Assembly: GCA_026419785.1 (NCBI GenBank) | Contig: JAODTK010003643.1 | Location: forward strand, 186,001 to 250,000 | DNA length: 64,000 nucleotides | Direction: 5' to 3' | DNA from: Sclerodactyla briareus | Lineage: Eukaryota; Echinodermata; Holothuroidea; Dendrochirotida; Sclerodactylidae | In this document: positions 7,610-52,512 of the stretch, piece by piece | Layout: every line of letters begins with the position of its first letter | How positions within the stretch are numbered: the stretch's first letter is position 1 | Translations under genes and position numbers: made by a program | Notes under the pieces: generated by a model | Database searches by the model: none | What the model saw: only the letters and a program-made list of their open reading frames with translations | What the model was told of the DNA's origin: nothing

Positions 7610-9300
7610 AAGTGACCAGTTTCAAATTCATAAGGACTAATTTTTGATCATGTCCTACCAAAGGAGTATTAATTTTATGAAATGTGACTAAATTGCCTAC
7701 ATTATGCAAATTCGACACACTAATTAGCCAGTGACCCATTTTCTATTTGTAAATAACTCAGTCAGGACACTAGTGGAAACCGCACTTTATAGTTTCATGT
7801 GACTCCAGGGTCGTGTCGGAGGTTTTCGAAAGTGGGGGGACCCACGAATGCAATGACCATCCATAAGCGGAGCGCGCACCATTCGTTGGGCGGCGGAGTG
7901 CACTAAGAAAATTCAGATTTTCATCCCCTCGAGATCGACGGAAGCGGCATTTGCCAGGATCAATAGCAACCATCTACATGTGTATTTGAGTAAAGACCAA
8001 AAAGGTCGTCATTGTGCATACTAGATGATTTACCGAGTATCACCAATGTTTTTAATTACCTTTTCTAACCTGGCTTTTGTTTGCGTTGGATCCAGGGTCT
8101 ACCGAACGGTCTCTGGCTTCTGGTGAGATCGAAGGGTAAAGCAATAGGCGTACGGTACCACTCAAATTTGGGAGAAAAAATTTGTACCCTAATGTTTACA
8201 AGTCTGTCATGGACGCACTACCGCGCCAGTGGAGCGCGCGAAAAAGGCATGTTTTTCGGGCATTATATCGAAAAAGACTGCGAAAATTCAGCATTTTTCC
8301 ACTTTGCTTTTTTCTTCCCATATTTTTCCACGATTTTCAACCCGAATTTTCATCTCATAGAATGGGTGGGGGGGGCGGTCTGCCCACAAGGCTTCTGAAA
8401 TTATCGGTGAACGAAATGATTCGAACATCCAAGTCGCATATTAGCCTACACGCCTGGAAGAAAAACGCCTTGCGGCGCGAAACACTTGAACAATTATCAC
8501 TTTTGGCTATTCGATTCCAAAATTCGAATTCTGTATAAGCGTGGGTTACCCTTCCATTGGCGCTAGTCGGGTCCAGGTCTTCACCTGGGGTCTCTTACAT
8601 GAAATTAGTGGACTTGAGACAATTCCCAACGGATTATTGTTTGGTTAGACAAAATTTGAATCAGTTCAGAGTGATAACAAAATCGTGCATGTTGCTATTA
8701 ATTTTTATTACGGTCCGGAAAAGTGGGGGGGGGGACAAACGATACGATATCCCCCCCCACTTTTGAAAGTGGGTGGGACATTTCCCCCCCCGTCCCCCAC
8801 CTTTGACGCCATGGGAATCTTACCAACTTGAAAATTTGCATGATGAAGCAAATGGAACACCTCGAATAACCCCTCATGACTCAAATCGTATGTTAGAAAT
8901 AGTTTGGGATGAAAGGTAAACCTTACTAATCAACCAGCCTCATGAAAATCCAACATATAGTGGAATTTGGAAAAAAAAACTATCAAATTAGACACCCTGA
9001 ATTGACCTCCAGTGACCGTTAATCTATGTTAAAAATGTTGGGGGCTGAACCACGTACCCACCAGTTCCATTAAATCTGGCAACTTAGAATGAGGCCTTAA
9101 TTTATGCAAATATGAACAGGATGGAATGACCTCCAGTGACCCTGGATCCAAGTTTCTGAACTATTGTACACTATACCACCAGGTTTCATGAGTTCATCCA
9201 ACTTCAAGATTTTGCGTAATTAATGCAAATTAGTAACATTTTAATGACCGCCATGAACCCTGATACTTTCTTAAAAAGTTCAGGGACTGAAGTTTTTTTC
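7610..9300 (+). repeat. Diverged 'gacctcc-gtgacc' repeat, interrupted by a GCGCGC-type insert
   Basis: Blocks at 7610-7790 and 8815-9300 share a loose roughly 120-150 bp motif: gacctccagtgacc, then a phrase like aagtttcatgaaaatccaac, then attaatgcaaattag. Between them (about 7800-8812) lies other repeat material including gagcgcgcgaaaaa, a G run and the second copy of the G/C-run repeat. The same motif blocks recur at 11940-13080 and 50130-51085. Confidence 0.5.
8710..8812 (+). repeat. G/C-run interspersed repeat, copy 2
   Basis: The order is ggtccggaaaagt, a G run, gacaaacgatac, a C run, cacttttgaaagtggg, gggacatttcc, a C run, and finally gacgccatggg. The parts match copies 1 and 3 in order and spacing. 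Confidence 0.6.
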
Positions 9301-11939: not shown

Positions 11940-13120
11940 ATTCAATTAACATCTTAATTTGGCTCGAATGACCTTCTATGACATAACAGTTTTTTTATGA
12001 AAAATGCTCCCATCAATAATAAGCCCATGTCCAGAATACCATCTCCATATCGCGCATACAGGCTTTTAGAGGTTCTTTCTTGCAGAAAATTTTATTATTT
12101 GCATTTTTTGTCGCATAAGTGACTTGAATGCCTTGACGACAGAACAGTTTTTATGGAAAATGCTTTCCTCAATGTGGTGCACCAAGCCCTAAAAGAATTG
12201 TTTTTCTGTAACCGATACATACACCCTGCTATCGCCCCAAAGTTAGCAAAACCAACCTTGACTCTTTCTAACCTGAAGACAAGGTGTCAGATTGAAGCGG
12301 GGGTTTGTTCGTCTATTCTATCATACAGAGCTCATCACAGATCCAGGAATTGGCATTTTTATTTTTTTTTTGTCTTTGACCCTGACCTAGGCACAAAGAC
12401 TTGAACCTTTGACCTTTGCCGTTTTTTTGATCCACCGAATCCAGAAATTACCATGATACTGTCTACATCCCCTAACTGCCTCATTTCCACATGTAATTGA
12501 TTTTTTTTTAAGAAACCTTGAAAATTAAGTGTGGTTAATTTATGCAAATTATTCAGAAGACATAAAATGACCTCAATGACACTGTTGTTAACTTGATCAG
12601 GATTGAAGGTGTACCATGTACATCTCCACCAAGTTTCATGGAAATTCAACCACTTCACAATCTGCAATAGTTATGGCAAATTTGGACATTTAAATTCAAA
12701 TTAGTCACATTAAATGACCTCCATGCATCATCCCTGCGGCCAAATTTTTGGGACTATAGATAAACATCTCCACCGAGTTTTCATAGAATCAACAAACTTT
12801 CAAAACTCGTCATTAATTATGCAATTAGAGCGACTTTAATTTGGCACATATAATGCTGGAATCTAATCAGTTCATCGTACACTTCATATTTGCTATAATA
12901 CGCTGCACGCATCACACATGCATCTACCGATCAAGAGATACTTATACACAAGCTTCCGGGCCAAATTCCATTAAATATGCAGATTCATGCAAATTAGTTT
13001 GATCTTTCGGGACAAGAAGTAGATGAACATCGACAACTCTTCCCACGGTTCGGAGATATCAAATGCACATACGGATTGACAGACAGACAGACCGACAGAC
13101 GAACGGACGGACAGACGGAC
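11940..13120 (+). repeat. Diverged 'gacctcc-gtgacc' repeat ending in a GACGGAC tail
   Basis: Repeating phrases (aatgacctccatg, caccaagtttcatggaa, gcaaattagtcacatt) occur at about 120-180 bp spacing. The block ends at 13077-13120 with a gacagac/gacggac run, an ending shared by many old non-autonomous repeats. Family not identified. Confidence 0.5.
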
Positions 13121-13260: not shown

Positions 13261-15954
13261 CTCTTGAAATAAAAAAAAAAAATCCATGTCCACAGAAGAT
13301 ACGTTTTTTTGATACGCGATAACTTTAACTAACATAGCATACTCGTATCACCCAAAAGACCACTGCGAAAATGTACGAGTCTGCCCGGCCCGGCCCGCAT
13401 TTCGCCATGCAAGTCCCCAGTGCAGTGCTAGAGTGTCCGGCTGCCAAGCGAGCTAGCTTGCCATAGGCAACTTATATGCTGATGTCTTTGCAATGCACAT
13501 GTGCAGACATACTCATATGTTGCTAGCTTCTACCAATCACTGAATCTGCAACGGCGCGGCCACATCTGAACAGTCCACTCACTATGGGGGCAAATGCCTG
13601 GAAGGCTAGGCCTGCAATTCCCGCCAAAAGTAGTGGGAACGACACTGCGCGTACTGCAAAGCTCCCGCGCCCCCCGAGGCAATGTTGAAATGTAATTAGT
13701 GTGCATTCCTCCAAGAACGTTTTGTAGGTATGCATGTATGATGAGGAATGATCGTCCTATAAATGTCGTAGTAGAAGTTGCGAGGTGAAATTCTATACTC
13801 CAGTGCATAAAACTGTGCCTAAGCTTGGACTACTACTAAAATACAAAATTTGGTCTGTGCTGCAAATTTTGGGAATGTAATTTATTATTTAATAACAATT
13901 ATTCTTTGCGGACTTTGGCAACGTCTAGCCTACAAGTTACTTTTACTACTACTGCGTCAGCAATGCTTGGAATTGCCGTGCATTTTTTGTATTTCAAAGA
14001 TTATTTAAACACTAGTTTAGTATTATCTGTCAATTAGCCCAACATACCTGTAGTCTGTAGTCTGTACATAAGAAAACACACAAAACAATTATTTTTTTAT
14101 TCTGACTTTTTTGTCAAGGAATCTAATGCAGTCATGACATCGTATGTGGTTGGTTTGTGTGTGGGTGTGTTTGTGTTGTGACCCTGGCTTGTTAACACGA
14201 TAACTTGAGCCCACCTTGGTGGCTCAAGTTCATACTTGTATGTGGGTTCCCCATATGATACATGAGCCCTATTGGTTTTTGGGTTCGGATCGAAGGTCAC
14301 TAGGTCATGAACTTCAAGGCAGTCAAGGAACACTAAGAAGCCTCTGCCTTTTTTGTTTTATTTTGTCGTTTAGTTTGTTGCCTACTGGTACTGTATTGTT
14401 TACTTAAAACCTTGTTCTACATCCTGATATCTTATGTGAATGGTGCATGATAGGGCCATGAGAAAAAACATTAAAACTGTGTGCACCGTTTCCCTCCTCT
14501 TGTAAAACAACACTCTCAATGTAAAACCCTGTGGTGGCCAAAGCCTAGTAAATGGTGTTAATATCTGCATTGAGGTGTGTAAATTTGATGAGAAGTTAAC
14601 TTTATAACAATCTCAACAAGCGTTAACATTTTACAACTGCGTCAATCTTTCATTCTGAGTATGACCTCAAGAATATAAGTTGTTGCATACAATTTGTGTT
14701 TGTTCATTTCTCATTTTTCAACGATCGATTAATCGCTTGTAATTGGAGGTCGTTTTGTGCGATGGTTACAATTTCTGTAGCTGAACGCAGTCGCTTTCAA
14801 TAAAATTGTCAATGGAATGTTAGTTATAATATTAACTTTCTCTGGTGACGTGTGCAAAAAGTCTTAGCAATTCGATTGCACCGCGCATTAGCGCATTGAT
14901 TGGTAATATTTTTAATTCTAGTCGTTACGTCAGAATTGGAGCGACGGGCAGCTCCGAACAGCTTCACTCGAGATTTGACCATTGTTATGTCGGAGAGGGA
15001 AGACGTTGATATAGAACACTCGGCTTCCAAACTTTGTCTCTGTGCTTCATTACGAAGTAAGCACCGATAAAATAGAATTTATTTTAAGGATTGCAGTTTT
15101 TTCCATTCGCAACGCAATCGAAATGTCATGAATCATTCTGAATGTTGAGGGCAATTACAATTAGAGGTAGTGCCATAAAATAACCCCCAATAGAGCGTTT
15201 GATCAGTCCGAAAATACAGGAGCCCTGATTCCCTAAACCCAGACCGTGGTCGTGGCTTTTCGCTCAGAGCTCCAGCTTGAAATCGTTCATTCTTCGCTTA
15301 GACATCAATGAGAGCACATTGCAGAGACTAGGCTCGCTTCCAAATCACAAGCCCTTGCCCTGTACATTGGCAGTGCGAACAGTGCTTTCGTAAGCATGAA
15401 ATGAAAATTGTGTCGCCTCAATTTTGAAACTGTGTAGAAACGATACAGACGGAAATCCGGATATCCTGCTCCATTCATTCAATGAACTGTGTTCAAATAG
15501 GCTATTATTTTATAAAAAAAATAATATAATTTACGTGCCTTTGCCTACAGTCTCACGGCAATTATAGCCTATGGGTAAAACAAAACAAACACGAACAGCC
15601 AAGTAATAAGGGTCACGCACAGGATTCGGATTCCTCTTTCACTGATTTCCGTAAAACGCCACGGTCCGACAATTATCTACATCACTTTCACTTTTTCAAA
15701 CATTTCGTTCTCCGAACATAATACCTCACATTTTTTAGTAGTCAAAATCAAGGTCCTTCGCACATCAGTCTCGATACATTCGATCGAATACGTTCGATAC
15801 AACAATTTCACATCAACATCACGTAACCGATAGGTGGTGTAGTGGTGAGGACTAACGTTTTCGGATCCCGCGCCAGGGGGCGGCGATTCTTGTAATAAAT
15901 ATTGGGGGGGATATGACGTCACACCATCTAATCGAGCGCGCCACCATGGGTTGG
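13261..15954. other. No firm gene; one possible minus-strand exon
   Basis: On the minus strand, 14930-15050 reads EAQRQSLEAECSISTSSLSD, then ITMVKSRVKLFGAARRSNSD, followed by a possible gtaacg donor. It has exon-like composition but no recognised family. The rest shows no gene. A weak tRNA-like ggtggtgtagtggtgagg lies near 15833. Confidence 0.3.
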
Positions 15955-16740
15955 CGCGTAGCGACAAGGGAATTTTGTTGTTTACAGACCCCCCAGATTG
16001 CAGGAAACGGCCACTTCTCGGGCCATATGGCAGTAACAACATCCAAAATTGTCAATGGATTCCTCCCGAATTTTTATTTCAAAGCAACATCTTGAGGGAA
16101 CTGATCACTGTTTATTCCGTACATTTGGGGCCACCGTCGGTTGTTGACGCGTCGATTGACGGTACAAGGAAATTTTTATTTTTTACAGACCCCCAGATTG
16201 CAGGAAACGCACTTCCCGGACCGTATGGCAGTGAGACACGTCCCGAGAATTTGGCAATCAATTTCAAATTTCATATTTCATAAACGTTCTTGAGGAAACT
16301 GACGATTCCTATTCCCTTCAATTGGGCTAGCCGCCACCATCAGTGGATGCGTAGAGTAACAAGCAACGAATTTTTCGTTTTACAGACCCCCCATATTGCA
16401 GGAAGTGGCACTTCCCGCGCCGTACTGCAGTGAGCACGTCCTGGAAATTGACATAATTTTCAAAATTTATATTTTCAAGAAACGTTCTTGCAGGAAACTG
16501 ATCGATTTTTCATTCCTTACACTTTGGGCAGCATCAGTGACGCGTAGGGTACATAATTGCCGGAAATCGGTACTTCTCATGTCTCATGGTCAGTAAGCAC
16601 ATCCCCCAAATTCATAAATTTCATCTCAAGCACCGCCCTTGAGTCACTGATCAATGCTTATCCTTACAATCGGCGCCACCACTCACTTGACGCGTAGGGG
16701 CGGAAAGAAGTCGTCTTACGCACCCCCCCCCCCCAGGTGC
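15955..16740 (+). repeat. Tandem array, about 4 units of ~165-200 bp
   Basis: The phrase acagaccccccagattgcagg recurs with starts of gattgcagg at about 15996, 16196 and 16394, then degraded copies near 16557 and 16730. Each unit also carries gcacttcycggrccgtatggcag, aaacgttcttgaggaaactg and gacgcgtag. Each unit has a T-run plus ACAG resembling a splice acceptor. Confidence 0.8.
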
Positions 16741-18462: not shown

Positions 18463-19120
18463 TGCTGCCCTATTTGGATGTTTTATGCGAAATTATGAAA
18501 GTTTGTCGATGTAGACTAACTTTGTGATAAGGTACAATTCGTCCGCGACAAAACATGCGGTCATTTCAGGCATCGAGTCAAATTTGCATAATTTATGCGG
18601 TTTTTGACACTTTCGTCAACTGGAACGAAACTGGTGGTGGGTCAACATTGTCCCGAAAAATGGAGGTCATTTCAAGTCATCGGAGGTCAATTGTCATCAA
18701 GTTACTGTGATTTTCAAACTTTGTCAGATTGGAACGAAACTCAGTGGGGTGGGGTCCACTTTTGTCCCGAAAAACTTGGAGGTCATTTAAAGGTCATAAT
18801 AGGTTCAATTTGCATTATTTATCGAATTTTTCACAACTTTGTCGTCTTTAACGAAACTTGGTGGATGTAAACTACATTTGTTCTGATCAAAGTGAGGTCA
18901 TTTTAAGGTCTCGGAGGCCCAACTTGCATAATTTATGCGATTTCTGAAACCTTTGGTCCCAATTTGGGCAAAACTTGGTGAGATGTAGGCTACATTTCGT
19001 TCAGAACAAAGTGTAGGTCATTTTGAGGTCATCAAGGTACAATTTTAGGAGGAAATTTTTCTGCCTTCTGCAGACTTTCACAAAATCAAATGAGCCTTGA
19101 CAGTCCCGTTTCACGATTTC
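18463..19120 (+). repeat. Left arm of foldback element 2
   Basis: Units recur at the ggtcatt phrases near 18561, 18663, 18782, 18897 and 19017, about 115 bp apart. Confidence 0.8.
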
Positions 19121-20000
19121 AATGAGTGATTAACGTATCGGTTTTTACCCGCCCACACATGTTTAGTTTGAGCTTCACTTGACATATGTTCGTGTTCTTC
19201 GGATATCGTTTAACAGAATTGCCAGGCTATGCTTAGTCTCCCTTAACAATAGTCGTATATGGCAAAACCAGTGCAACCCACATAGGGCTTCCTATGAACC
19301 ACAGGCCTACATGAATTACCGGTAACCCTTGTATCAACACCCAAAGTTCCGACCTCTCTAAGTCCGACTCGGTAAACATAGGGGCTGATCATGCGAGAAC
19401 TTTTCAATTGAAAAGACGTCTCAATATTTCGACCATGTGTTTCAATACACCGGTCGGAACATCGGGAGGTCGGAATCATATAGAGGTCGGAACATATGAG
19501 TGTCATCGTGGCGACCATTATATCCCGGGCAGAGATAGGCGTACACAAGGTGGGAGTTAGGGGACCATTTTTATTATGTTAGGTTATCTGATTTGCATAA
19601 CTGTGTAGATGACTCTGTTTCATGGTTCCTGAGAATGAGAAGGGTAGATCAGTGCTATTGTCCATGAAGTGTTTCTTATTTTGCATAATGGCATTATTTC
19701 CGCAATTGTTAAGTATGTTGGGTTTCCTCAAAACTTAGTATGGTATACTTAGTTTGTAAACACGATTGCTGTTGAATCAAATCCGTTAAAGTCATAATCC
19801 TGAGGTATCCGTGCTATTGCGGATAACCGGCCCAGGTCCCATCTAGGTCAGCACACAACTGCTCAGTATGTAGGTTGGGCCCTTGTAGTGCCTACTCGCA
19901 TTGTCTTTGTCTGATGGATTCTCCTCAAATCTCCTGAGGTTAAAGTGTAACTATACATGGTAGTCGTGTAATTCCGCCTACGTTTATATCCCCTCCTTTG

Positions 20001-20608
20001 AAAAATCAGTGAACGGGACTGTCAATGCTCATTTGATATGGGAAAAGATCCATGACCCAAGCTCAGCAGGCAGAAAAAAATCATTCTAAATGGTACCTTT
20101 GATTACCTCAAATGACCTACACTTTTTCTAAAAGAACTGTACCTACCTTACCAAGTTTTTTCCAAATTGGAGAACGTTCCAGAATCGCTACATTATGCAT
20201 ACAACACAGTTTCGTTCAAATCCGACAAAGTTTGAAAAATTGCATACATGATGCAATTTTGACCCCGATGACGTGAAATGACCTAAAAAATTCGTGACCA
20301 AAAGTGTGACCCACCCCCAGTTTCTTCCAATCCTTACAAAGTTGAAACCGCAGCAATGATGCAAATTGACCTCCAATTACCTTGAAATTACCTCCAACTT
20401 TTCGGGACCAAATGTGACCCCCAACACCAATTTTCGTTCCAGTCTGACAAAGTTTGAAAAATCACATAATTTAGCAAATTTGGACCTCCTATTACCTTGA
20501 AATGACCTCCATGATTTTCGGGACGAATGTTACCCCTACCCACGAAGTTTCGTCTAAAATCGAACAAACTTCATAATTTCGCATAAACCTCCAAAATAGA
20601 GGGCAGCA
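20001..20608 (-). repeat. Right arm of foldback element 2
   Basis: Inverted units recur at tgacct phrases near 20110, 20278, 20385 and 20505, ending in ATAGAGGGCAGCA at 20597-20608. The same end recurs at 51074-51085. Confidence 0.8.
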
Positions 20609-22483
20609 GACTAAGAAAATCGATTTCGTCCTCATTACGGTGAATTTTCCGTGCCATGATCGAGACTGATAATTATGATGCTCACTCAGTCAGCCTTTCC
20701 CGCCCCAGTTGGCCATCCCCACTGTGGTCACGTGGTTACGTATCCGGACTTGCAGTCGTTAGGGGTTATGTCGACTCGTAGGTGGACGAACCGAAACACT
20801 GGAAGATTAATTTTTAACCAACTTTGGTTCCCTCGAATTTTACAATAGTTGACGCAACTAAGTGCAATCATTATTACGTACGTTTATAAAGACAAAAGTG
20901 TGGACAAATTGTTGTCTTTTAAACCTACGTAATAATTTATAAATAACGAAAATCGATTTCTCAGATGGGGGGGGGGGGCGGAGTGCGAAGGTGTGACATC
21001 CCTTTCGACGGGCTCTCCTCAGCGGGAATTTGCTGTCTCCAAGCCCATCTGCTATGCATTAACATCCTTCTAATGCATTTTATTAATAACCATGATTTTG
21101 ACAGACATACCCCAGTTTTTAAGGAAAGGGAACAAAGAGCTCACAACGCTCAGGAATGCCGTTTCCGGCATCTGGGAGGTTATACAACCCAAAATTTCCC
21201 TGTACGATCTGCGCCCCAACCCAATGTGGCGCTCCGCTTAGATATAACACACAAACCATTTCATCACAAGTTTGGTCGGCGTCCCCCCCCCCCTCAAAAT
21301 TTGTAGGCCTGCTTCCGCCGCCACTGAATGTGACTACATCATATTCAGACATGGGAGAATCATAGGTAACTGGTCTCCATGAAGCCATACCGAAGCGTTA
21401 AGCCTCTAACCTGCTAAAGCAGCTGATGGAGAACGTTCCTAAAATAGAGGGGGCTATCGCTCTTCCATAGTATATATACCACGGTCGAATATCACCAACA
21501 TATTGTCTCAGGACTTCGGTGACGAATCCCAAGAAATTGGGATTTTGCTCATTCCATTCAGGTGACCGTAGATTTCAGTCATCAGTAGCACACGGGCTTG
21601 ATCTGGAAGGGACACCCTGAATAGATTCCGCGGAAAACGCCACATTTTAGGTCATTAATTTTGTACGGAAACTTTCAATAACATTTACAACACCGAAAGT
21701 GAGAATTTATCGAAGAAAGAGGTCTTTGAAGCCTAAAATTGACCGAACCACTGTTTCGCTATGCAGCGTATTGCGGCTTGTTTGGTATCGTCCGCAACTT
21801 TCAGAAAAATTGATCCTTACTATGGCAAATAAAAAAGAATATCCATCTAACTTATGCCAAAACTTGGTCGTAGGTTGTCTCCACGATCTAAATCAACCAA
21901 TAGAGTAATTTTCCTGGCAGACCAGGCCGTTTCCGTACTCGGAGTGAAAGAGCGAATGTCCGATTGCGCAATCAATGTTAACGTCGCACCGCCCACTAGT
22001 ACCGCCCATGTTCAGCTCGACACGAGCAGACGAAGTCGCACAGGCTTTTGTTAAGGCAAATCACCGAAGGATTGTTGAAGGGCCACCCTGCACATATGAG
22101 TGAAGGAGGCTGATACAAGGTGACCAAAGTCAAACACCTGTTTTCAAACAGGCCTATACGAAGCCAAATCGCCAACGAATGGAAATGAAAGTATTGCTCG
22201 GATGAATAGCAAGACAACACTCAAATAAGCCAAATGTGATTTTGTCGTTGCCTTCAATTTTACCAGCCAAATTCCACACTAAACGCAAATTTTCCATTCC
22301 TGGGAAGCGAAAACACCAACTGCAATATGGAAAATTGATCTTGAAAAAAAAAATCTCTCCACGTCCTCTTTTCATTCCGGAGAGCGCTTCAATTTTGGAG
22401 AGCGCCAACTATTCTTGGAAGCCGCGCAATCGGCTAACTTCTAGTGATTATGCAGCTCACACTTCTCCCGACACCCGTAACGG
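20609..22483. other. No gene recognised
   Basis: A G run lies near 20965-20976. Reading frames are short and unrecognised. Confidence 0.4.
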
Positions 22484-22962
22484 AATAACGACCTAGAACT
22501 CATCATGCTGTCTACGTTCCAGGCCACATATGAGAAATCGAGTCATTATTATGGATCGAGACGGTGAAATTATGATATTAAGTCATTTTTATGAATCGGG
22601 ATAGCAGATACGAGAAACTAAGTCTTATTATGAATGGAGAAGAGGGGGAATAAGGACCATTTAAGTCTTATGATGAACGGGGAAAGGCGGATACCGAGCA
22701 GCTAAGTCATTATTATGCCTCCGAAATCGACGCATAATGAGAAAAGAAGTCGTTATTACTGCAGAGACGGTGCAATTATTACTGAGGAACTCATTATTAC
22801 GGCCTGAAATCTGACGTATACCATTACTTGCCTTGATTGTGGCCGAAACGGCGATCTTTTTCGTCGCACCGATTTTTATTGGCGATAAAACGAGTATTTT
22901 CCTCATTATGTGGCTTGGAACATAGGTGGAATAATGACTTCTAGGTCGTTAATCCGCTTAAG
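22484..22962. mobile_element. MITE with ~50-bp inverted ends
   Basis: The left end taacgacctagaactcat and the right end atgacttctaggtcgtta are inverted copies. Similarity continues inward for about 50 bases (tctacgttccaggccacat against atgtggcttggaacatagg). The inside repeats aagtcattattatg several times. The flanks allow a TA duplication (Tc1/mariner style) or AAT, so the superfamily is unsettled. There is no coding capacity. Confidence 0.75.
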
Positions 22963-23019
22963 ATTAACGTATCAGAACGAGTAAAGCCAGCATAATTTTT
23001 GGCGCTTTCGGCGTTCCAT

Positions 23020-23102
23020 AGTTATTTCACGTTTTCACGTTTCACGATTCAACGTTCACGTTCACGATTCTCGTAGTAATAGAACGCTGTTAACTGAAGG
23101 CC
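23020..23102 (+). repeat. Left terminal inverted repeat of foldback 1
   Basis: It begins AGTTATTTCACG, has three or four cacgttc/cacgattc repeats, then gaacgctgttaactgaaggcc. The right end at about 31790-31864 is its inverted counterpart. Confidence 0.82.
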
Positions 23103-23579
23103 TGCTCACAGGCAAATGTTGGATGCCTGTGATCAGCGCGAATCTGAAACGGGAACCGTTAAACGACTTCTGCTACAGAGTTGATTGATCCTCTATCTTC
23201 TGTTGGACTATTGAGACAAACTGGCTGTTCGGGAAGAAAACTGCAGTACCTTGTACTTCTAAATTGAGAATTAAGTTAGGACTTTGGTATAAGCTCGCTC
23301 GTGTCTGGTATGTGGTTTGAGGTAGAGGATTATTTAGGCTTGTCGTTTTTTTTTTCGGTTTAATCTTAGTTGTTTTTAGTTATTTGAATAGTGAGGATCA
23401 AATTGGAAATGGTATATTTCACTTTATGTGTTTATCCTGGACAGCATCATATCTGTACATTTATTTGTTTTATGAGTTGTAACTGATGAATGTACCCTGC
23501 AATATGGGGACAGGCGTCTATGGTCGCTGCGTAATCAACATTTTCGCACCAAATGGCTCGTTGATGGCAAATTTGGCCA
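23103..23579. other. Unique part of the left arm of foldback 1
   Basis: There is no counterpart on the right side. A hairpin at its start (gcctgctcacaggc / gcctgtgatcagc) is the only visible structure. Confidence 0.5.
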
Positions 23580-23790
23580 TTTTCAAGGACCTCTATTTTT
23601 CCGTTGGTTTGAAACTGAACGGTGTGCCAAATCATGCATGGCATACAAAAGGCCAGAGTCGTAGAGGATGAAATATTCTAACCCAGGAAAAAGGTTCTTA
23701 TTGCACTTTGAATTCCTCTGGCTCAGCCAAATTTTTCACACTGGTAGCCCTCCATAATTCTGGCCCGAAACAGAGAGGCTTAACACAACT
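23580..23790 (+). repeat. Unit B block, left copy
   Basis: It contains gccaaatcatgcatgg, ggccagagtcg and ttgcactttgaattcctctgg, which match in inverted order the three unit-B blocks of the right arm (gccgagggattcaagtgc ... ggaattccgtaccatgattcgg). Confidence 0.7.
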
Positions 23791-23869
23791 AAGCGGGCTA
23801 TTTGTCCTCGTTTTTTACCGTTATTAGACTTCAGCTCGATTACCCACGTCCTACCCACGTTCAGGACTT

Positions 23870-26124
23870 TTGTGAATTACGTGTGTCGTATTTCCAGAGA
23901 GAGTGTTATTCATGCGATTTCGTATTCCCGAGAAGTGCACCACTTTGATTCTCTGTACAGGCTGGTTATTTTTCACACACGATGTAACCTTTATAGTGTT
24001 AATGACATGTTACCATTCAGGCCTGATACAAAGGGACTAAGTGGCAAGTGCCCGTTGGTCCGATTTCGCGACAATCACCATGTCGCGAAATCACGAAGTG
24101 TCCGTCTTTCCGGAGGGAGTGTGACCCCTTTGATCCCTCTGTATCAGGCTGATATTTTTCACACTTGTAGCCTCTTATGAGGTTAATGATGACATTTTAA
24201 AAACCTGGCCTGATACAGAGGGTCTAAAGCGGGCAAATTTGCTCTGTTTGATGCGATTTCGCGATAATTAGCAATATCGCGAAATCTTAAAGTGTCGTAT
24301 TTCCGGAGGGATTGTGACCCCTTCAGTCCCTCTGTATCAGGTTTATTAATTCCCACATAGGCCTCCATGAGGTTAATGACATTTTTTAAACACCTGGCCT
24401 GATCAGAGGGCTAAAGCGGGCAAATTTGACCCGATTGGACAACACCACTCAATGACCACATGCGAAATCACGAAATGTCGTATCTCCGCAGGGGTGTGAC
24501 CCATTTAATCCTCTGTATTCAGCTGATAATTTTCACACTAGTAGCCATTTACGGTGTTAATGACATTACAATAAAAATCGGCCGATACAGAGGGACTAAA
24601 GCAGGCAATTTGCCCCGTTTGGACCGACATCAGCTTTCACTCAATGAGCCCATAGCGAAATCACGAGGTGTCGTAATTTCCGGAGGGAGTGTGACTCCTT
24701 TAATTCCCCTGTTACAAGCTGATATTTTTTGTTTTTTTTTTCACACTAGTAGCCATTTACGGTGTTAATGACCTGCTAAGAATCTGGCCTGATACAGAGG
24801 GATAAAACAGGCAAATTTGCCGCGTTTGGACGCGACATCGCTCAATAATCACATGGCAAATCACGAAAGTCGTATTCCGGAGGAGTGTGACTCTTTAACC
24901 TTTGTATCAGTCTGATAATTTTCACACTCGTAGCCGCCCCTCTCAATGAGTTATGACCCGTTAAAAAAAAAAAAAAAAAATCTGGCCTAACAGTGGGGGA
25001 CTGAACGGGCAAAGTGCCCTGTTCGGACCGACATCACTCCATTAGCCACATAGCGAAATCACGAGTGTCTTATGTTCCGGAAGAAGTTGTGACCCCTTCA
25101 ATCCCTCTTTATCAGGCTGAGATTTTTCACACTAGTGAGCCCTTCTACGGGGTCAATGACATGCTAAAAATTTGGCCTGATATAGAGGGGACTAAAGCGG
25201 GCAATTTGCCCCGTTTTGGACCGACTGACCACATCACCATGACCTCATAGCGAAATCACGAAATGTCGTATTTTTCCGCAAGGGGGTGGTGACCCTTTAT
25301 CCCTCTTTTATCAGGCTGTCTAATTTTCACACTAGTAGCCTCTCATGAGGTTATTGACGGTTAAAATCTGGCTGATATCAGTGGAACTAAAGCGGGCAAG
25401 TGTGCCCCCGTTTGAATCCCGACTTCGCCATAATCAGCCATATCGCGAAGTCACGAAGCGTCCTATTTCCGGAGAGAGGGTGACCCCTTTAATCCCTCTG
25501 TATCAGGCTGATATTTTTTCACACAGTAGCCTTTTCACAACGTGTTGAATGGCATTCTAAAAAATCTGGCCTGATACAGTGGGACTAAAGCGGGCAACTT
25601 TGCCCCGTTTGATACCTTTCGCGACAATTAGACATATCGCGAAATCATGAAGTGTCGTATTTCCGGGGAGTGAGACCACTCGAATCCCTCTGTATCGGCC
25701 TGATATTTTTCAACACTAGTAAGCCCGTTATGGTGTTATGACATGTTGGAAACCTGGCCTGATACAAGGGACTAAAGCGGGTAAATCTGCCCGTTTGATC
25801 CATTTCGCGACAATTAGCCACCGATGTTAAATCACAAGTGTCTTATTTCTGGTGGGGCGTGTGACCTCTACAATCACTCTATATCAGGCTGATATTTTTC
25901 ACACTTGAGCCTCTTATGGTGTCAATGACATGTTAAAAATCTGACCGATACAAGAGGGACTAAAGCGTCCTAGTTTGCCCCTTCGATCCGAGGTTTCGCG
26001 ACATTAGCCCTATCGCGAAATCACAAAGTGTCGTATTTTTCCGGAGGGAGCGGGAACCCCTTTAATAATGAAATGTTAAAAATCGGCCTGATACAGATGG
26101 GCTAAAGCGAGCAATTTGCCCCGT
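23870..26124 (+). repeat. Satellite array, left arm (about 12 units of ~190 bp)
   Basis: Each unit has cgaaatcacgaagtgtcg, tatttccggagggagtgtga, tccctctgtatcaggc, tttttcacactagtagcc, ggcctgatacagagggact and gcgggcaaatttgccccg. Two subtypes alternate: one with a tcgcgacaattagccatatc hairpin segment, the other with accgacatcactcaatgagc. Units differ mostly by one-base gains and losses. Confidence 0.9.
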
Positions 26125-27414
26125 TACCTGAATGGCTCTCTTCCGATTGGAAGTCCAGACCTCAAGAACTTTGACTTTGACACCCTTTGAACTCGGCTCC
26201 CACCTTCTGCAAATTGTGGCTGTATATTTCACGAAGAAACTGAATTTCTATTTCACTAGTCCAAAATATGTGCTTCTCAAAACCACGTTCGATTTTTTGT
26301 TGTCAGGGAGGAGAAATTTACTGAGTATCCGACATATATAATACATACATACTATCTCCTATATGGGTGTAGATACAAATGAATAAAACAACCCTCAATC
26401 GGTTTCTTTCAAGTGTATATATAACATTTATTTTAGGAATTGGAAAAATTGATGTGTTTTATGTATGGTGATTTTACTTCCGACGCCTCGATCTGTCGAT
26501 AATATTCAACATTTAAATCGACAGATAAACTAACTACTAAAGACATCCCAGGCCATCGCACTTCATTGGCTATTAATATTCCACATATCTCTCCGGTCTT
26601 TCATGTCCATCATGTCCTCGTTCCTTGTTTGTTTTTTTTTTTTTTTTTTAAATATTTTTTTCTTGTTCTATGTCTATGATTCTGTTTGCAGATTTATATC
26701 ATCTTATTAGATCATACGCTTCTACGTGAAGGGGCGCCCCACTTAGTATATTCCTACATCACGAGTTTTTCCTCGTTGTGTCCGTTTTAAAAGCTGAAAG
26801 CATGAAACAATTCGCTTTTTCCTCTTCTGATAATCAACAACAATGCTCGGAGGGCACATACCAATGCATACTTTGGCGATTTCAACTACAAAGCTTTGCA
26901 AAGTTTGGGAGGGTAGTGGCCGCGGGTCGCCACAAGCCACGGCTGACACACAGCACTGACACCAGTGCCGGATCTTAGTAACAATCAGTGGCGTAAGAAC
27001 TTATTTTCGAGCCGTTGCTGAAGTTTTAAATGGATCTGGGGGAGGGTCTAAAGAAAAAAATTGATTGTTTTTTCTCGCCTTTCCGGTGACCGTGAGATGC
27101 AATGTGGTGCAAGATAGCACTCCAAACACTCACTTTCATTCCAGAAATAATATTCGATTTTCACATGTCCTAGATGCGTTTTGTTCTTCTCTGCCAAATC
27201 AAATGAGGGCAACAATTAAGATTTAGTAAATTTATATTAAACTTTCAGAGGACCGCCGATGCCCCTCCTCCCCTGCCACTCTAGATATTTTTTGCATTTC
27301 AGTAGTCTTAGATGCATTCTGAATGCCTTAATGACACTCCCCAACATTCACTTTTTCGTCATAACTTAATTTTGGGCATTTTCACGTCCTAGTGCGACTT
27401 GTTACTCACTGACT
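26125..27414. other. Core of foldback 1
   Basis: This unique sequence between the arms has a T run at 26633-26650. Two related half-units (gcactccaaacactcactttc and gacactccccaacattcac) are about 220 bp apart. A cagtggcg...-style stretch at 26985 to about 27290 may be a small inserted element. The longest reading frames are about 70 codons and unrecognised. Confidence 0.5.
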
Positions 27415-27549
27415 CAGGGATTCGTGGTCTCACTCCCTCCGGAAATACACACTTCATGATTTCGCGATATGTCTAATTGTCGCGAAATCGCATCAAACAG
27501 AGCAAATTTGCCCGCTTTCGTCCCTATGTATCAATACGAGGCTACCCTT

Positions 27550-27715
27550 CAAAAAACTTTAGCTGCTGCCGAGGATTCAAGTGCAAGGAAGAAGAGCCCT
27601 CTCCCATTGAATTACTGCATCCTCTGCCGACTTCTGGCCCTTCCAGAATTCCGTACATGATTCGGCAAGGTCACTACGGAAGTAAGAGGTACTTCTTGTA
27701 CTTAACACATAGAGG
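27550..27715 (-). repeat. Unit B block, right arm copy 1
   Basis: It contains gctgccgaggattcaagtgc, ttctggcccttccagaattc and catgattcggcaaggtcac, and appears shortened relative to the other two. Confidence 0.75.
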
Positions 27716-29409
27716 CTACTAGTGTGAAACATATAGCCTGATACAGGGGATTCAATGGTCTCATTCCCTCCGGAAATACCGACACTTAATGATTTCGCGA
27801 TATGACGCAATATCGTGAAATCGCATACAACGGGGGCAAATTGCCCCGCTTTAGTCCCTCTGATTCAGGCCAGATTTTTAGCGTGTCATTAACACCGTAA
27901 ATGGCTACTAGTGTGAAAAATATCAGCCTGATACAGAGGGATTCAAGGTTTGGGTCTCACTCCTCCGGAAATACGACAACTCACCGATTTCGCGATATGG
28001 CTAATTATCGCGAAATCGCATCAAACGGGGCAAATTTGCCCGCTTAGTCCCGTCTGTATCAGGCCAGATTTTTAACATAAATCAAATGAGCCACATAAGG
28101 AAATCACGTAGTGTCGTATTTCCGGAGAGAGGGTGACCCCTTTAATACCTCTTATCAGGGCTGGTATTTTTCACACTAGTAGCTTCGTGATTTTCGCTAT
28201 TGTGCTATTGAGCGATGTCGGTCCAACGGGCAAATTTGGCCGATTCAGTCCCACTGTACCAGGCCAGATTTTTAAAATGTCATACCTCGTGAGAGGACTA
28301 CAAGTATGAAAAATATCGCCTGAAACAGAGGGAGTGAAGGGTCACACTCACTCCGGAAAAACGACACTTCGTGATTCGCTATGTGGCTCATTGAGTGATG
28401 TCGGTCCAAACGGGGCAAATTTGCAGCTTAGTCCCGCTGTATTCAGGCCTGATTTTTAACATTGTTTCATAAATCTCGGAGAGGGGGCTACTAGTGTGAA
28501 AAATTACAGCTGGTACGGGGTTAAGGGGGTCACACTCCCTCCGGAATACGACATTTCGTTGATTTCGCGATATGGATATTTGTCGCGAAATCGGATCAAA
28601 ACAGGAAAATTTGCCCTGGCCTTAGTCCCTCTGTAGCAGGCCAGGTTTTTAGCATGTCATTAAAAACGAAACGGCTGCTAGTGTGAAAATTATCAGCCTG
28701 ATACAGAGGGAGGCTTAAGGGGTCACACTCCGCGGAAATTCGACACTTCGTGATTTACGCTCATGGTGCTTATTGAGCGATGTGTCAGTCCAAAACGGAC
28801 AAATTTGCCACGCTTTTAGTCCTCTGTATCAGGCCAGATTTTTAACATGTCATTACCACATTGAGAAGCTACGAGTGGGCAAACTATCAGCCTGATTACA
28901 GAGGGATTAAAGGGGTCACATTCCTCCGAAGTAGCGGACACTTCTTGATTCGCGAGTGATGGCTATTTGTTGCGAAGTCGGTCCAAACGGGGCAAATTCG
29001 CCGGCTTTAGTCCTCTATCAGGCCAGATTTTTAGAATGTCATTAAAACCGTGAAAGGGTACTAGTGTGAAAAAAAATATCAGCATGTACAGAGGGATTGA
29101 ATGGGTCACACTCCCTCCGGAAATAGGACGCTCGGGAATTCGGGATATGGCTAATTGTGCGAAATCGGATCTCAAACGGGGCAAACTTTGCACTGCTTTA
29201 GTATTTCTGTATCAGGCCAGATTTTTAGCAAGTCATTAATACTGTGAAAGTACTAGTGTGAAAAATATCAGCCTGATTCAGAGGGAATAAAGGGGTAACA
29301 CTCCCTCCGGAAATACAAAATTTCGTGATTTAGCATTTTGCCAATCGTCGCCCGAGTCGGACCAAACGGGGGAAAATTGCTCGCTTGTCGTTAGTCCCTC
29401 TTTTCAGGC

Positions 29410-29640
29410 CAGCAGTTTTCACAATTAGCTGTGCCGAGGGATCAAGTGCAAAAAGACCCTTTCCCAGGTTAATTACGCATCTCAGCTGACTTCTGGCCCT
29501 TTCGGAATTCCGTAATGATTCGGCAAGTCACTGCACTTTGGTCCATTCCAAAAACTACGGAAGAGGAGTACGTTCCTCGACAGGGGTAATTGACGGAGAC
29601 GGTACAAAACACGCGGCGGATTTGCCCGCTTTAGTCCCTC
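29410..29640 (-). repeat. Unit B block, right arm copy 2
   Basis: It contains gccgagggatcaagtgc, ggccctttcggaattccg, gattcggcaagtcactgcac and ggagacggtac, ending at the cccgctttagtccctc of the next satellite unit. Confidence 0.8.
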
Positions 29641-30834
29641 TGTTTCGAGACTAGCTAGGTTCTAACATCTAATGACACCATAAGAGGCTAACTAGTGTGA
29701 AAAATATCAGCCTGATACAGAGGGATAAAGGGTGACACGCTCCCTCCGGAAGTACGACACTTCTGATTTCGCGGATATGGCTAATTGTCGCGAAATCCGA
29801 CCAAACGGGGGCAAATCCCCTCTTTAGTCCCTCTGTATCAGGCCAGATTTTTTAAATGTCAGTAAAGCTAAGAGGGCTGGCACAAGTGTGAAAAATATCA
29901 GCCTGAAACAGAGGGATTGAAGGGTTCACACTCCCTCCGGAAAAAAAGGCACACTCGTGATTCGCTATGAGGCTCATTGAGTGATGTCGGTCCAAACGGG
30001 GTCAAAATTTGCCTTGCTTAGTTCCCGCTTATCAGGCCTGATTTTTAACATGTCAAAAATCTCGGGAGAGAGAGGCTACTAGTGTGAAAATTATTAGCCT
30101 GGTACCAGGGATTAATGGGGTCACACTCCCTCCGGAAATAACACATTTCGTGATTTCGCGATATGGCGATTTGCGCGAAAATCGGTCCAAACGGGTCCAA
30201 TTTGCCCGCTTTAGTCCCCCTCTGTATCAGGCCAGATTTTTAACATAATCAAATTAGCCACATAAGGAAATCACGTAGTGTCGTATTTCCGGAGAGAGTG
30301 TGACCCCTTTATATCCCTCTGTATCAGGCTGGGTATTTTCACACTAGTAGCTCGTGATTCGCTATGGGACTTAATTGAGCGTGTCTGGTCCAACGGGGCA
30401 AATTTGCCCGCTTTCGTCCCACTGTTACCAGGCCAGAAATTTTTAACCATGTCATTACCTCGTGAGAGCTACAGTATGAAAAATATCAGCTGAAACAGAG
30501 GGATTGGAAGGGTCACACTTCCCTCCGGAAAAACGACACTTCGTGATTTCGCTCTATGTGGCTCATTGAGTGATGTCGGGGTTCCAAACGGGGCAAAAAT
30601 TTGCCTGCTTTAGTCCCAGCTGTAATCAGGCCTGATTTTTAACATTTCATATAAATCTCGAGGAGAGCTACTAGTGTGCAATTAATCAGCCTGGTACAGT
30701 GGGATTAAAGGGGTCACACTCCCTCCGGAACTAACGACATTCGTGATTTCGCGATATGGCTATTTGTCGCGAAATCGGATCAAACAGGGCCAATTTGCCC
30801 ACTTTAGTCCCCTCGTTATCAGGCCAGGTTTTTA

Positions 30835-31070
30835 AAACAATAGCTCGATGCCGAGGGATTCAAGTGCAAAAAGAGCCCTTTCCATGAAATACCGCATACT
30901 TCTGCTGACCTTCTGGGCCCTTTCGGAATTCCGTACCATGATTCGGCAAGTTCACTGCACTTTGGTTCAATATTCAAAAACTATCGGAAGAGACGTTAAG
31001 TTACTCGACATTGGGTAAGATTGGAGCGGAGACGGTTTACAAACGGGAGGATGTGACCCCGCTTTAGTCC
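30835..31070 (-). repeat. Unit B block, right arm copy 3
   Basis: It contains gccgagggattcaagtgc, ggccctttcggaattccg, gattcggcaagttcactgca and ggagacggtttac, the same order as copy 2. Confidence 0.8.
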
Positions 31071-31674
31071 CTCGTTCGAGCGAGGTTCTCAAACATATCA
31101 TTGACACCAAGAGGCACTAGTGTGAAAAATATCAGCTGATACAGAGGGATTAAAGGGGTCACGCTCCCTCCGGAAGTACGACACTTCGTGATTTCGCGTA
31201 TATGGCTATGGTCGCGAGAAGAAATCCATCGACCTAAACGGGGGGGCCCCCCCAAATTTACCCGCTTAGTCCTCTGTATCAGGCCAGTTTTTAATATGTC
31301 GAGAACAGCATACCGAGGCTACAAGTCGTTGAAAAATATCAGCGATACAGAGGGATAAAGGGGTCACACTCCTCCGGAAGAAATACGCACTTCGTGAATT
31401 CGCCTGATACAAAGGGACTGAAATGTTAAAGCCCCTCTGGAAATATGACCCTCATGATTCTCCGCGAAGGGTACCCGCAGAATTGCTGTATGAAGCTGCC
31501 AGGCAGTCATCCCAATTCGCCGACCAGTTCTAAAATCAAGATGAAAGAGGGGGGACTCCGATACGATGGGGATTCTAGGACGGACCCTGAAGTATACAAA
31601 ATAAAACTCATCCTGATTACACGAACCGAACGATTCGAATCCCCTTAGTCTGGTGGAAGTGTGAGCCTCAATGA

Positions 31675-31864
31675 AGTTAGTTTCACGATTCGCAAATGGT
31701 AGGCGGCGTCGTTGTTTCACGACTCATTCGTTTCACGATTCATGGCGTTTCACGATTCACAATCAATTTGACAAACCCAACATTGCATGGGAATATTGGC
31801 CTTCGGCCAACAGTCGTTCTAATAATCACGAATCGTGACTGAAAACGTGAAACGTGAAATAACT
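31675..31864 (-). repeat. Right terminal region of foldback 1
   Basis: Four gtttcacgattc-type repeats (31680-31755) are followed by the terminal inverted repeat ending cgtgaaataact at 31864. Confidence 0.8.
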
Positions 31865-31869
31865 TCCAT

Positions 31870-34800
31870 GAGGTGGAACTGGCAGTCAGTAGCACTGCAC
31901 TAGCCATGGCCGCGCAAACTCGCTTGCAGCAATTGTGCTATGTATCGAGTGATATCGCTATCGGGACGTCGCACGCGCATCAGCGCATGACATTGTGCGC
32001 AAAATATCATTTCAGCAACTTCACACCAGACAGTAGGACAGAAGAAATCGGCGTGCCGTGGATCCTCCTAATCAAGCTACGCAGGCAGCACAATGTTCGT
32101 AAATGGCGTATTTTTGTAACGAAACATCGTAACACCTGTATTGTACCGTTTTTTACGACTAGACGTGATTAGTATCGTTTAAAAGAGAGGTGAATAGTGG
32201 CGTCGAACGATCGAAAGTGGTTGGAGGACACAGCTACCGTTTGCTGATGCGACGAGTAGTGTAAACGCTAGGCTATCTCTTTGGCCAGTGTCGTTACTGA
32301 ATATGACGGAACCGATGCCAATGGTCCACACTCCACAGTGAGGTTAGGGTTACAGATTTTCAGTAGAAGTTGAATAATGAAGAATACCGAGGGACAGCAA
32401 TTTTGTTTACTGTACAGTGGTTCCTTAGGTCTGATACACCAAGAGTCCCGGGAACGCCCCAGCACAAAAAAGCAAGAGTCCAGCATTCCAAGAGTCCCAA
32501 TAGTTTTTAGAGAGTCCCACTTAGACAATATTTTCATGCAAAATAAGAAAAAGATTACCGTGAGAGACATACGCCTATACATTAATATGCAGAAGGCTTC
32601 ATTTAGTTGCAATGTACATGGTATTATCACCGAAATGCATTGCTTATTACTGTAAATATTATTATACGTTATGGGGTTGGCTTTAATACTTTCATACGGT
32701 CGGAACAGAAACGTTTCACAATAAAATACATCTCTAGGCTCCGATCTATGTGTTCAATACATAACTCAGTACATAGGAAGGTCGGACATGTGGTGCCAAC
32801 GAGTATGGGGAAGTCCACATACAAATACGCCCTACCCCAGTCCCTCGTTTTCATTACACCGGTATGAAGACCGACATTGTTGTCTAGACTAAAATGACTG
32901 AAAGCTCTGTCAATCAAATCACATCATAGTCGAAACTTCGTCGATCCTAGATTCAAAAGATCATCGTATCGACCGATTGCTATAATCCGATCGGTAAATG
33001 CTGCCTCGAGTTCCGATCACAGATACCAACCGATACCCATACCATATGGGTGGCAGAAATTGCAAACATACCGCTCACAAATTATTACACTGTATGCAAC
33101 ACACATTCAAAGAGTAAAACAACACATTCAAAATATCAGCACCCAGGGCGAAGCATGAAGCAAAAAATGTCTTGCATTTACACATTGAGTTCGGATCCCC
33201 CGCCTTCCTTGATAATGAAACTCACAAACGAATCGTTCATCAGCTGAACATAAGTATATGCTGGATCGCGCTATAACAAGACATACTCAAACTACGAATG
33301 GCCGTTGCTTTTTAACCGCCATAACCATAGCCTCAAGTTATGCATGGTACCGGAAGCAAGACACGGTTGTGGGGCAATTGATTGTTAATGTGCTAAAAAT
33401 TCATTGCCTAAAACTGATAAGATCATCGTTGTGAGAATGTGTGAATCAATCCATTTATTCATGGCATCGCGTACCGTAGGCTTAGCGAGAGTCTCATGCC
33501 ACAGCATTTTTTCGCCGCGATCGCTACCGCTCGAGTGTTATGGCCGTGATTAAAGTGCCAATGCAAAAAACACGTTGGGTCGTTATTGGGTGGAGAGATG
33601 ATCGATAGTTGAGGTGAAATGACGGCACTACATGTGTCACAAACACTACCATGTGTTCGTTGGTACTGGTGTATGCACTCGCAACTGAGCAATAGCGCGT
33701 CTGGCATGATGCATGCAAACGGAAATATACTTTCGTAGGCTACTCAGTGACAAGAGTAGCGGTATCGGAATTCCGAATCCATTTGGAAAGCTGGCAAATA
33801 AATGTATAATATTTTGTTTCCTTCGCCGGGTGTCCAAACTATGCATGATGAAAAAGATGGAAATCGGATACGTATTGACTTGAAACTAAAGTGAATTATG
33901 ATACACCTTGCAGGCTGGGGAAGTGGGTTGTGGCGAATAATTTGAGACGTATCGTGGTGCGTGTTGATGTTCAAACAGTGCACCCAGGACGTGTGGTGGC
34001 TGAAGATTTGCCATCCCTGGGAATATCAATGCGTCAGGACCCGGAATCACGGGTTAACGGGAACCTGTATAGGCAACGTGCGAAACCCATCATAGGGGGA
34101 CTTTGTGTTAGCAGTCAATTAGCCTTTCCGCAAATAGAAACAGCCTCTCGCGATGCATTGTGGTCTAGCTCAGGGGACAAAGTAGGCAATCTACGGAAGG
34201 CAAATAGGACTTTGGGTCAAGCATTTAACTGGTTTTTTTCTGCAAAATATTACACATTTGTGTCAATTTGTCACGATAAATATGGAAAAAAACTATCACC
34301 ATCAGGGACAACATACTAAATTTGGAGAGTTTTTTCCAATACACGCCAGCGCTTAAAAAGACACGGGGGCGGCGTGCCGAATTCGCACCCGAAACACTGA
34401 GAAGCCCACCGAAATCGCTGTGACGGGGCAAAAAAAATGAAATATTGAGCAAATTCGCACCCATAAAATTTCCCCTAATGCTCCAGCTCATAATTGCGAT
34501 TCTAGAATACTGTACACATGTACGAGCCTCGTAGTAAATACCACAATTGACTACCTATGCATACTATAATGTGGTCATGCCTCTTGTGTGGGCTACAACG
34601 TACAGTAGCGTACAAAGACACTAGCATACACGCGGCCATTGTTATCACAGTGGCCGCAAGCCGCAGTTGACAAAGCACGTGGTGCAATATGATATTAGTC
34701 ACTCCACCGTTACAAGCGGCGGACAAACCAAAGTTTGTTGCCGAATGCAATTCACATTATATAACCAAACAGATTGCACAAGATATTAAATTAACAATGT

Positions 34801-50800: not shown

Positions 50801-52512
50801 TTAGTCCTGCAAGATTGACCTCCAGTGACCTCGGCCACATTAGGAAAATTCATCGGCACTGAAGTTGGCCCTATTCACCCAAGTTTTCATGAAATCCAAT
50901 GAAGTTGAAAATATCACATACATTCTGCCAATAGGCTACTGGCCAAAGAAATGCAAACGTGACTCGGATGACCTTAAAATTGTCGCCATGTTTTTTGCTC
51001 CAACACTACCCTATACCTCCCAACCACCACGTTTTCGTGTAAATCGCACAACCTTTGCGGAAAACCCTGCAAATAGAGGGCAGCAAATATACGATATAGC
51101 CCATTTTGCGAACTTATCCCGAGATTTTACTCTCCTGGACATGTGTAACCAAGTTTGTGTTCAATCGGATAAAGTGGTTAAAGATGAAATCTCTAACCGC
51201 CTAAAGTTTCAGGCGGATACGGCGCGGAGACGGCGGGCACACGGTCAAAAAGCCATACAGTAATATCCCCAAACACTTTCCAGTTTTGCGGGATATATTA
51301 CCATCATACTGGATTATTGGTACATATGGTGGTGGGCACATGAATCAAGGAGTGTTCACTGCTGTAATGTGCCTTGTAGCATCGTGGAATCTAATACGCA
51401 TGTACCATTTCTCTGACTCCCTGTTTGTACCCCAAGACACGGTCACCCAAGGGTACTGGTGTGTCATTGAATATTAGTTTATTATATACATCGCCGCTCT
51501 ATTTATTCACAGTATACCAAGGGTACCCCGCGGTTTCCAGCACGCGCCCTCCTATTCTGCCACCAGACCCTGTGGAGCATACCTCACCCACATCACCACC
51601 ACCGACAGCCACCACAGCAGCAGCCGTTGTCATCACCGACCCGGTGGATGCCCCAGGACAGGAGCCGGCCCCCGCCAACCTCACCGTCGCCCGGAACGAC
51701 CGCCCCGACCGATACTATGACAGGGGGCGCCCGTCTAGGATGTCTGCGGTATGGCAAGTATGACTCTGACAGCAGTGAGGAAGAGGCCCTAGGTCGATCG
51801 AGGAGCAGGTCGCGGAGCCGGAGCAGGGTCCAGATCTCCTATTACCAGGAAGAATAGGAGGAGGTCCCGTAGGTAAGTGACCTTTTTCACTCGCTGTTTC
51901 CTCCTTCAATGCAGTATTGGCACTGACTTGCAAACTGCAGGTTTCACGCATTGATAGCCAGAATCCAGGAGTGCGGGTGTTAGGCGAGTGTGAGGAACGA
52001 TGTTTGTGTGAATGTTGATATGATTTCTGTTGCGGCCCATGAGCCACCTGTATTTACGAGCGAGAACCTTGCTAAGAAAAAAAAGAAAAAATAAAGGCCT
52101 GGCAGATAGATTTCACCATACTTTGGATGGCCTCTAGATTTATTCTAGCTTCCTTAAATCGCCGAAAATTGGATTCAGGCAGGAAATAATTCTATAGTAC
52201 CTATCTGTGTGATCAGTTTCATCAACGCCGCTTGTGTACACACATATAATGGCCTAATTTTCTTTATTGTTTGGTTTTCGTTTGGATCTTCTTTGGCCGT
52301 AATTGAAGCGTCGCAACCTGAATACGCATAATTCCAGCAGTTTGCGCTGGCATGTTTTTGCCAAATTACGAGATTTTTACCGCACACGCATCCTGAACTC
52401 TGGCCTTTTAATTCTTTGTGCATATCATAATCAACTGTATATTCCACGTGTTCAAAGAGTAGGGAACTGTTCTTTGGGATTGAGCAATATTGACTCTTTC
52501 TTCCTCCTTGCC

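Follow-up and report, generated by a model that had tools for sequence, protein, structure and literature searches.

A foldback-like block with satellite-built arms, a candidate non-autonomous transposon, in Sclerodactyla briareus

In the holothuroid Sclerodactyla briareus, a stretch of 64,000 nucleotides (assembly GCA_026419785.1, contig JAODTK010003643.1, positions 186,001 to 250,000 of the forward strand; hereafter the window, in whose own numbering all positions are given) contains a foldback-like block of 8845 bp at 23020-31864, in which two opposed tandem arrays of a satellite unit of approximately 190 bp lie around a core and are enclosed by matching ends and a putative target-site duplication (TSD). 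Read from left to right, the TSD sequence TCCAT (23015-23019, +) is followed by the left terminal block (23020-23222, +), an imperfect terminal inverted repeat (TIR) which is weakly self-inverse and carries CACGATTC at 23043 and 23063. The left arm (23712-26126, +) consists of 12 units with a truncated one at its inner end, the core or middle domain (26127-27415) measures 1289 bp at 39% GC and yielded no Pfam family at the cut-off, and the right arm (27416-31406, -) consists of 19 units. The right terminal block (31675-31864, -), likewise an imperfect TIR and resembling a miniature inverted-repeat transposable element (MITE), has its inner boundary at AGTTAGTTTCACG (31675, +), and TCCAT recurs at 31865-31869 (+). 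Evidence for the terminal blocks came from end alignment, motif count and self-inverse score, for the arms from a unit profile, and for the core from composition and comparison of open reading frames (ORFs).

The block termini read AGTTATTTCACG inward, at 23020 (+) and 31864 (-), and these are the only two occurrences in the window. The perfect match of 12 bp is weak by itself, as two matches with one mismatch were also obtained in 4 of 100 shuffles. Aligned as mirror images, the ends show imperfect homology over approximately 200 bp (23020-23222 with 31864-31675), and their first 101 bp score 78, whereas 1000 single-base shuffles of the left end reached at most 37, and 810 equally spaced pairs taken elsewhere in the window at most 38. 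Of the 92 bases aligned in the outer 120 columns, 80 are identical (28 columns gapped), and in the outermost 60 columns this holds for 40 of 41 (19 gapped). TCCAT directly abuts these ends on both sides as an exact 5-bp direct duplication, as had been annotated; at the spacing of the block, such a match was found at 48 of the 36801 positions examined (0.13%). A 6-bp flank, TTCCAT, is possible only when the right end is taken one base shorter, which makes the ends unequal. The motif CACGATTC, chosen post hoc and not independent of the end homology, occurs six times in the window (1.7 expected on both strands), each time within the two terminal blocks. The terminus of the block was found once in the 64-kb window, which neither supports nor refutes mobility. 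Apart from themselves, the joined 300-bp flanks matched only a short stretch close to the left flank within the window, a search of viral contigs for the terminus gave 0 matches, TTTCACGTTTCACG was not found in a text search of the literature, and the phrase '5-bp target site' was absent among the matches listed by a literature search.

Since the unit is near-palindromic, its profile matched the block 71 times on both strands; for counting, one orientation was kept per arm and short fragments were removed by hand. This left 12 units in the left arm (23712-26061, +) and 19 in the right arm (27425-31356, -), where several are truncated, so that the opposed arrays around a 1.3-kb core and the approximately 31 satellite units of the initial annotation were both recovered, the arms forming no clean mirror image. 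Next to fragments, the right arm is interrupted by two unit pieces in inverted orientation (28086-28188 and 30252-30352, both +; unit profile and inverted alignments) and by copies of a module of approximately 150 bp, module M, which is unlike the unit. Module M is present three times on the right, as a partial copy at 27559-27677 (+, E 1.4e-31), as the copy at 29425-29639 (+) which served as source of the model and shares its last ~65 bp with the unit, and at 30846-31072 (+, E 4.2e-63), and once on the left, as a reversed, degenerate copy which overlaps the first unit (23568-23728, -, E 2.8e-10). The right arm also contains block duplications (the group of R5, R13 and R16, support 98/96). Between this arm and the right terminal block, the stretch 31407-31674 scores 31 against the unit (control maximum 29, from shorter windows) and probably holds unit remains, one unit match reaching 31457. 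The sequence TCACGA can be seen in both ends and in the arms, but it was picked post hoc and is not claimed as evidence.

The arms are 66.5-73.1% alike across 16 inverted alignments of more than 1.6 kb, and therefore do not resemble a foldback artefact of long-read sequencing, the arms of which would be expected to be near-identical. Mean unit identity over ungapped columns amounts to 0.699 within the left arm (66 pairs), 0.691 within the right arm (171 pairs) and 0.698 between the arms (228 pairs). Left and right units intermix, with 8 label changes, in a tree built from all units but one that was too short (30 of 31), and a single change was seen in 0% of 200 bootstrap trees. Since identity is about the same within and between the arms, and the tree mixes their units, the two arms most likely go back to a common old pool, without separate homogenisation. 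Elsewhere in the window the unit had no match up to E 0.01 and one at E 3.7 at full sensitivity, and relatives of the unit or of module M outside the block were absent below E 2. The unit pattern gave 0 matches in viral contigs; its sole match in bacterial genomes, in Salinicoccus, was taken as chance, the unit model covering 25 bases there (E 0.00099 for this locus of 8 kb, whose end lies 32 bases past the match).

In line with the annotation of the block as devoid of encoded protein, none of the 14 ORFs of at least 75 amino acids that lie entirely within it reached a curated Pfam cut-off, the best match being ArgoMid (E 0.037, 14.7 bits compared to a cut-off of 27.5). Across the window, 50 of 182 such ORFs were compared with Pfam, namely all 14 of the block and 36 of the 168 others.

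Several palindromes are strung together in the consensus of the unit, namely CCCTCTGTATCAGGC...GCCTGATACAGAGGG, GGGCAAATTTGCCC and TTTCGCGATA...TATCGCGAAAT; they comprise a 17-bp stem, imperfectly extended, a palindrome of 14 bp and a stem of 10 bp. The TTTCGCGATA...TATCGCGAAAT palindrome is present in about half of the units, and TCGCG of the C palindrome in just 15 of 31. Folded as RNA, the consensus reaches -70 kcal/mol, and as DNA its stem has a z-score of -7.05; stretches taken from three of the 31 actual units gave -5.19, -3.22 and -5.61. In a preliminary count there were 11 Watson-Crick double changes; the six-pair C stem accounted for 7 of these, and pairing was slightly above independence at several of its pairs. 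The formal count did not bear out this excess for the whole unit: over 36 pairs of the named stems and 31 units, the covariation score was 0.077 compared to 0.078 in shuffles (275 of 500 shuffles as high), 76.7% of cells were paired compared to 76.5%, and 13 cells had double-sided changes compared to 12.2. Hairpins maintained by selection were therefore rejected, and the palindromes look like relics inherited from the founding sequence of the unit, which was perhaps a MITE. An RNA family search found none at the gathering threshold.

Taken together, we read the block as probably an old, non-autonomous DNA transposon of the foldback type, because its mirrored ends lie far above chance and carry exact TCCAT at just those ends, because the same unit and module M are found in both arms while CACGATTC is confined to the ends, and because published elements with the same layout exist. 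Like that class, it has long multi-domain TIRs with tandem repeats around a middle domain, and a TSD at the TIR ends. The mobile origin and foldback layout proposed by the initial annotation thereby find partial support. A number of observations weigh against this reading. The duplication is just 5 bp long and expected by chance about once in 770 at a fixed boundary, a single copy of the element lies within the 64 kb examined, and no transposase was encountered among the 14 block ORFs and the 36 of 168 other ORFs compared. The arms are unequal (2.4 kb on the left, 4.0 kb on the right), and their unit order and inner end points differ. With regard to the unit tree, 92 of 500 label shuffles gave as few as 8 changes (shuffle mean 9.7), good support is confined to 3 of the 27 inner branches, which alone would allow separate arms, and the bootstrap had not settled. 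Finally, the ends score 17 and 19 against the unit, where 346 control windows have a median of 17 and a 95% level of 21. As the ends thus lack similarity to the unit, growth of the units out of the terminal blocks, as proposed for Tetris, is not visible here and was rejected.

As far as the excerpts of the cited papers drawn upon here describe these elements, the layout of the block appears to match best that of Tetris, followed by Galileo and Tm1; the initial annotation had named FB, TU and Galileo as precedents and not Tetris. Tetris of Drosophila virilis is non-autonomous, modular and rearranged, without conserved ORF, and its arms combine a flanking domain, which shares its end with the MITE DAIBAM, and tandem repeats of ~220 bp, around a middle domain (PMC4079207). 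The repeat length is close to the ~190 bp of the block, which has a middle domain as well, and the relation between Tetris and DAIBAM resembles the MITE-like terminal blocks. Conversely, Tetris has TSDs of 8-10 bp compared to 5 bp here (6 at most), its TIRs reach 1,735 bp whereas the arms of the block measure ~3.1 and 4.4 kb with ends included, and a stretch of 37 bp is common to its repeats and its flanking domain, which is not seen in the block. Galileo, an element of the P superfamily in Drosophila, has long TIRs, which in one subfamily contain up to three direct repeats of ~210 bp, and GalileoG carries extra transposase binding sites inside its repeats (PMC3573991, PMC3688188). As in the block, its arms differ in repeat number, but its TSD is 7 bp compared to 5 bp, its TIRs reach about 1.26 kb, and the family has a P-type (THAP) transposase, which was not seen in the ORFs compared here. 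Tm1 of root-knot nematodes, assigned to Mutator/Foldback (PMC3169594), likewise has non-coding copies, and differs in its TSD of 8-10 bp, mostly 9, and its repeats of ~14 bp; both Tetris and Tm1 were referred to Mutator by their authors (PMC4079207, PMC3169594). With TSDs of 8-10, 7 and 8-10 bp in Tetris, Galileo and Tm1, compared to 5 bp, the block cannot simply be filed with any of them. Sequence comparison with Tetris and Tm1 was made with the four primers and the single motif that the papers print, which matched no better than their shuffled versions: the Tetris primers had at least 8 mismatches of 20-23 bases (mean 6.8-8.4 for shuffled primers, 15 shuffles each), and Tm1 motif C had 4 of 15 bases mismatched (shuffled mean 4.4). 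Lastly, the Cg_HINE Helentrons of the oyster are non-autonomous with satellite-like arrays, in a study that kept units of 100-500 bp (PMC7492417); in these, a single array sits at the centre, between two modules with subterminal inverted repeats, whereas the block has two opposed arrays and a target duplication.

The alternative that survives best, unlikely as we consider it, is a composite of two palindromic MITEs of ~150-190 bp each which landed on either side of a satellite block, whether or not the outermost ends then mobilised the entire block. The post hoc pattern AGTTA(0-2 N)TTTCACG, resembling the terminus, occurs three times in the window, at both outer ends and at the inner edge of the right block (31675), and the ends match in both orientations. 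The self-inverse scores of the right and left terminal blocks (35 and 30) fit such MITEs, the signal of each block alone being weak compared to 503 control windows (95% level 28, 99% level 36, maximum 46). Nevertheless, the mirror alignment of the ends is clearly better than the direct one (106 compared to 64) and the inner edge of the left block is degenerate. Taken singly, neither block is flanked by a duplication of more than 4 bp in the 5 bases around its edges, or by one of at least 4 bp at the outer edge actually used; yet the outer flanks are identical, which two independent insertions would not yield. Similarly doubtful, and a little more so, is that two copies of a small palindromic MITE acted as the ends of a composite transposon, comparable to those of bacteria, which carried an already diverged satellite block of 8.4 kb to new sites.

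An improbable explanation is a local inverted duplication of a satellite array without transposition, in which the ends and TCCAT were duplicated along or arose by chance. It would agree with the one copy in the window, the satellite units in the arms and the ordinary block duplications of the right arm mentioned above, but inverted duplication would leave inverted flanks, whereas TCCAT is direct and located exactly where the terminal homology ends; moreover, as unit order and inner end points are not mirrored between the arms, one clean inverted duplication is unsupported. A remnant or non-autonomous relative of a Maverick/Polinton, with AG...CT ends and a 6-bp TTCCAT duplication minus one T, is highly improbable: both ends begin AGT inward and TTCCAT can be drawn, but this requires unequal ends, the ends read AGTTAT and neither AGTAGT nor AGAGAG (in vertebrates, according to the excerpt of PMC8097293 used here, Mavericks carry TSDs of 6 bp and ends of the type (AGT)2 or (AG)3), and polymerase, integrase and capsid are absent at the Pfam cut-off in all 14 block ORFs, although a gutted copy would look alike.

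If the block is a foldback-type transposon, a transposase encoded elsewhere would bind the terminal blocks and cut at AGTTATTTCACG, and the whole block would have been inserted at a 5-bp staggered cut by trans-mobilised cut-and-paste. The arms may have been enlarged through tandem duplication of the unit by unequal exchange, the right arm additionally by block duplication, and the inverted pieces may have been produced by fold-back or template-switch repair. Because 40 of the 41 outermost aligned end bases agree, compared to ~30% divergence among units, the units may have diverged in large part before the last insertion, the arrays being already old at that time; this dating is soft, as recognition by the transposase can keep ends alike and 19 columns are gapped.

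A second element at 18463-20608 also consists of two opposed arrays (+ then -), here of a ~114-bp unit with 6 matches per side, around a core; opposed satellite arms are thus not unique to the studied block, and the layout recurs in the window. Its ends start with TGCTGCC, and a scan of 41 x 41 boundary pairs gave no convincing TSD, GAAAAT (6 bp) being found only at unaligned ends. Relatives of the ~114-bp unit lie at 8812-9249 (E 0.0022), 12617-12832 (E 1.2e-5) and 50719-50980 (E 5.5e-6), these values being the first-pass best per locus, as later ones were inflated once the matches had entered the model; a weak relative is found at 3096-3160 (E 0.085). The terminus TGCTGCCCTC(T/C)ATTT is found at 3096 (+), 20608 (-) and 51085 (-), and TGCTGCCCTCTATTT occurs exactly at 51085 (-) and with one mismatch at 3096 (+); its four matches at up to three mismatches are not unusual (mean 1.79, four reached in 11 of 100 shuffles). 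The 15-base end of the second element matches 25 viral contigs, which may reflect chance. In the ~114-bp units at 18664-19031, AGGTCA, which we take to be a nuclear-receptor half-site motif, occurs seven times in the left arm, with two pairs 11 bases apart, and four times in reversed orientation in the right arm (window total 28 + 28).

Other repeats in the window comprise a small inverted repeat at 22481-22956 (arms of ~72 bp, 77%) which stops 63 bp left of the block, two pieces at 33200-34467 and 49099-49763 which recur in opposite orientation 15-16 kb apart (68% and 71% alike, in different order), and tandem duplications at 55304-56092 (~400 bp, 78%) and 15939-16551 (~200-bp units, 71-73%). 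The sole ORF at a Pfam cut-off among the 50 compared, at 59897-60199, matches SAC3/GANP (E 2.7e-8) and also CSN8_PSD8_EIF3K (E 5.1e-7). ORFs near it, in 35472-60199, read like LENG8 protein and presumably belong to a LENG8 gene; the block lies upstream of the first ORFs seen of this probable gene.

Satellite arrays and transposons are usually treated as separate subjects. Here 31 satellite units lie between transposon ends that are flanked by a target duplication, which makes the block a concrete candidate mobile satellite, the nearest foldback precedent in the excerpts consulted being Tetris in Drosophila. Judging from work in Drosophila, such long opposed arrays would be candidate sites of inversion. 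If further copies exist in the host, satellites might perhaps be dispersed as cargo of such elements, and the arm units could perhaps serve as binding sites for the transposase.

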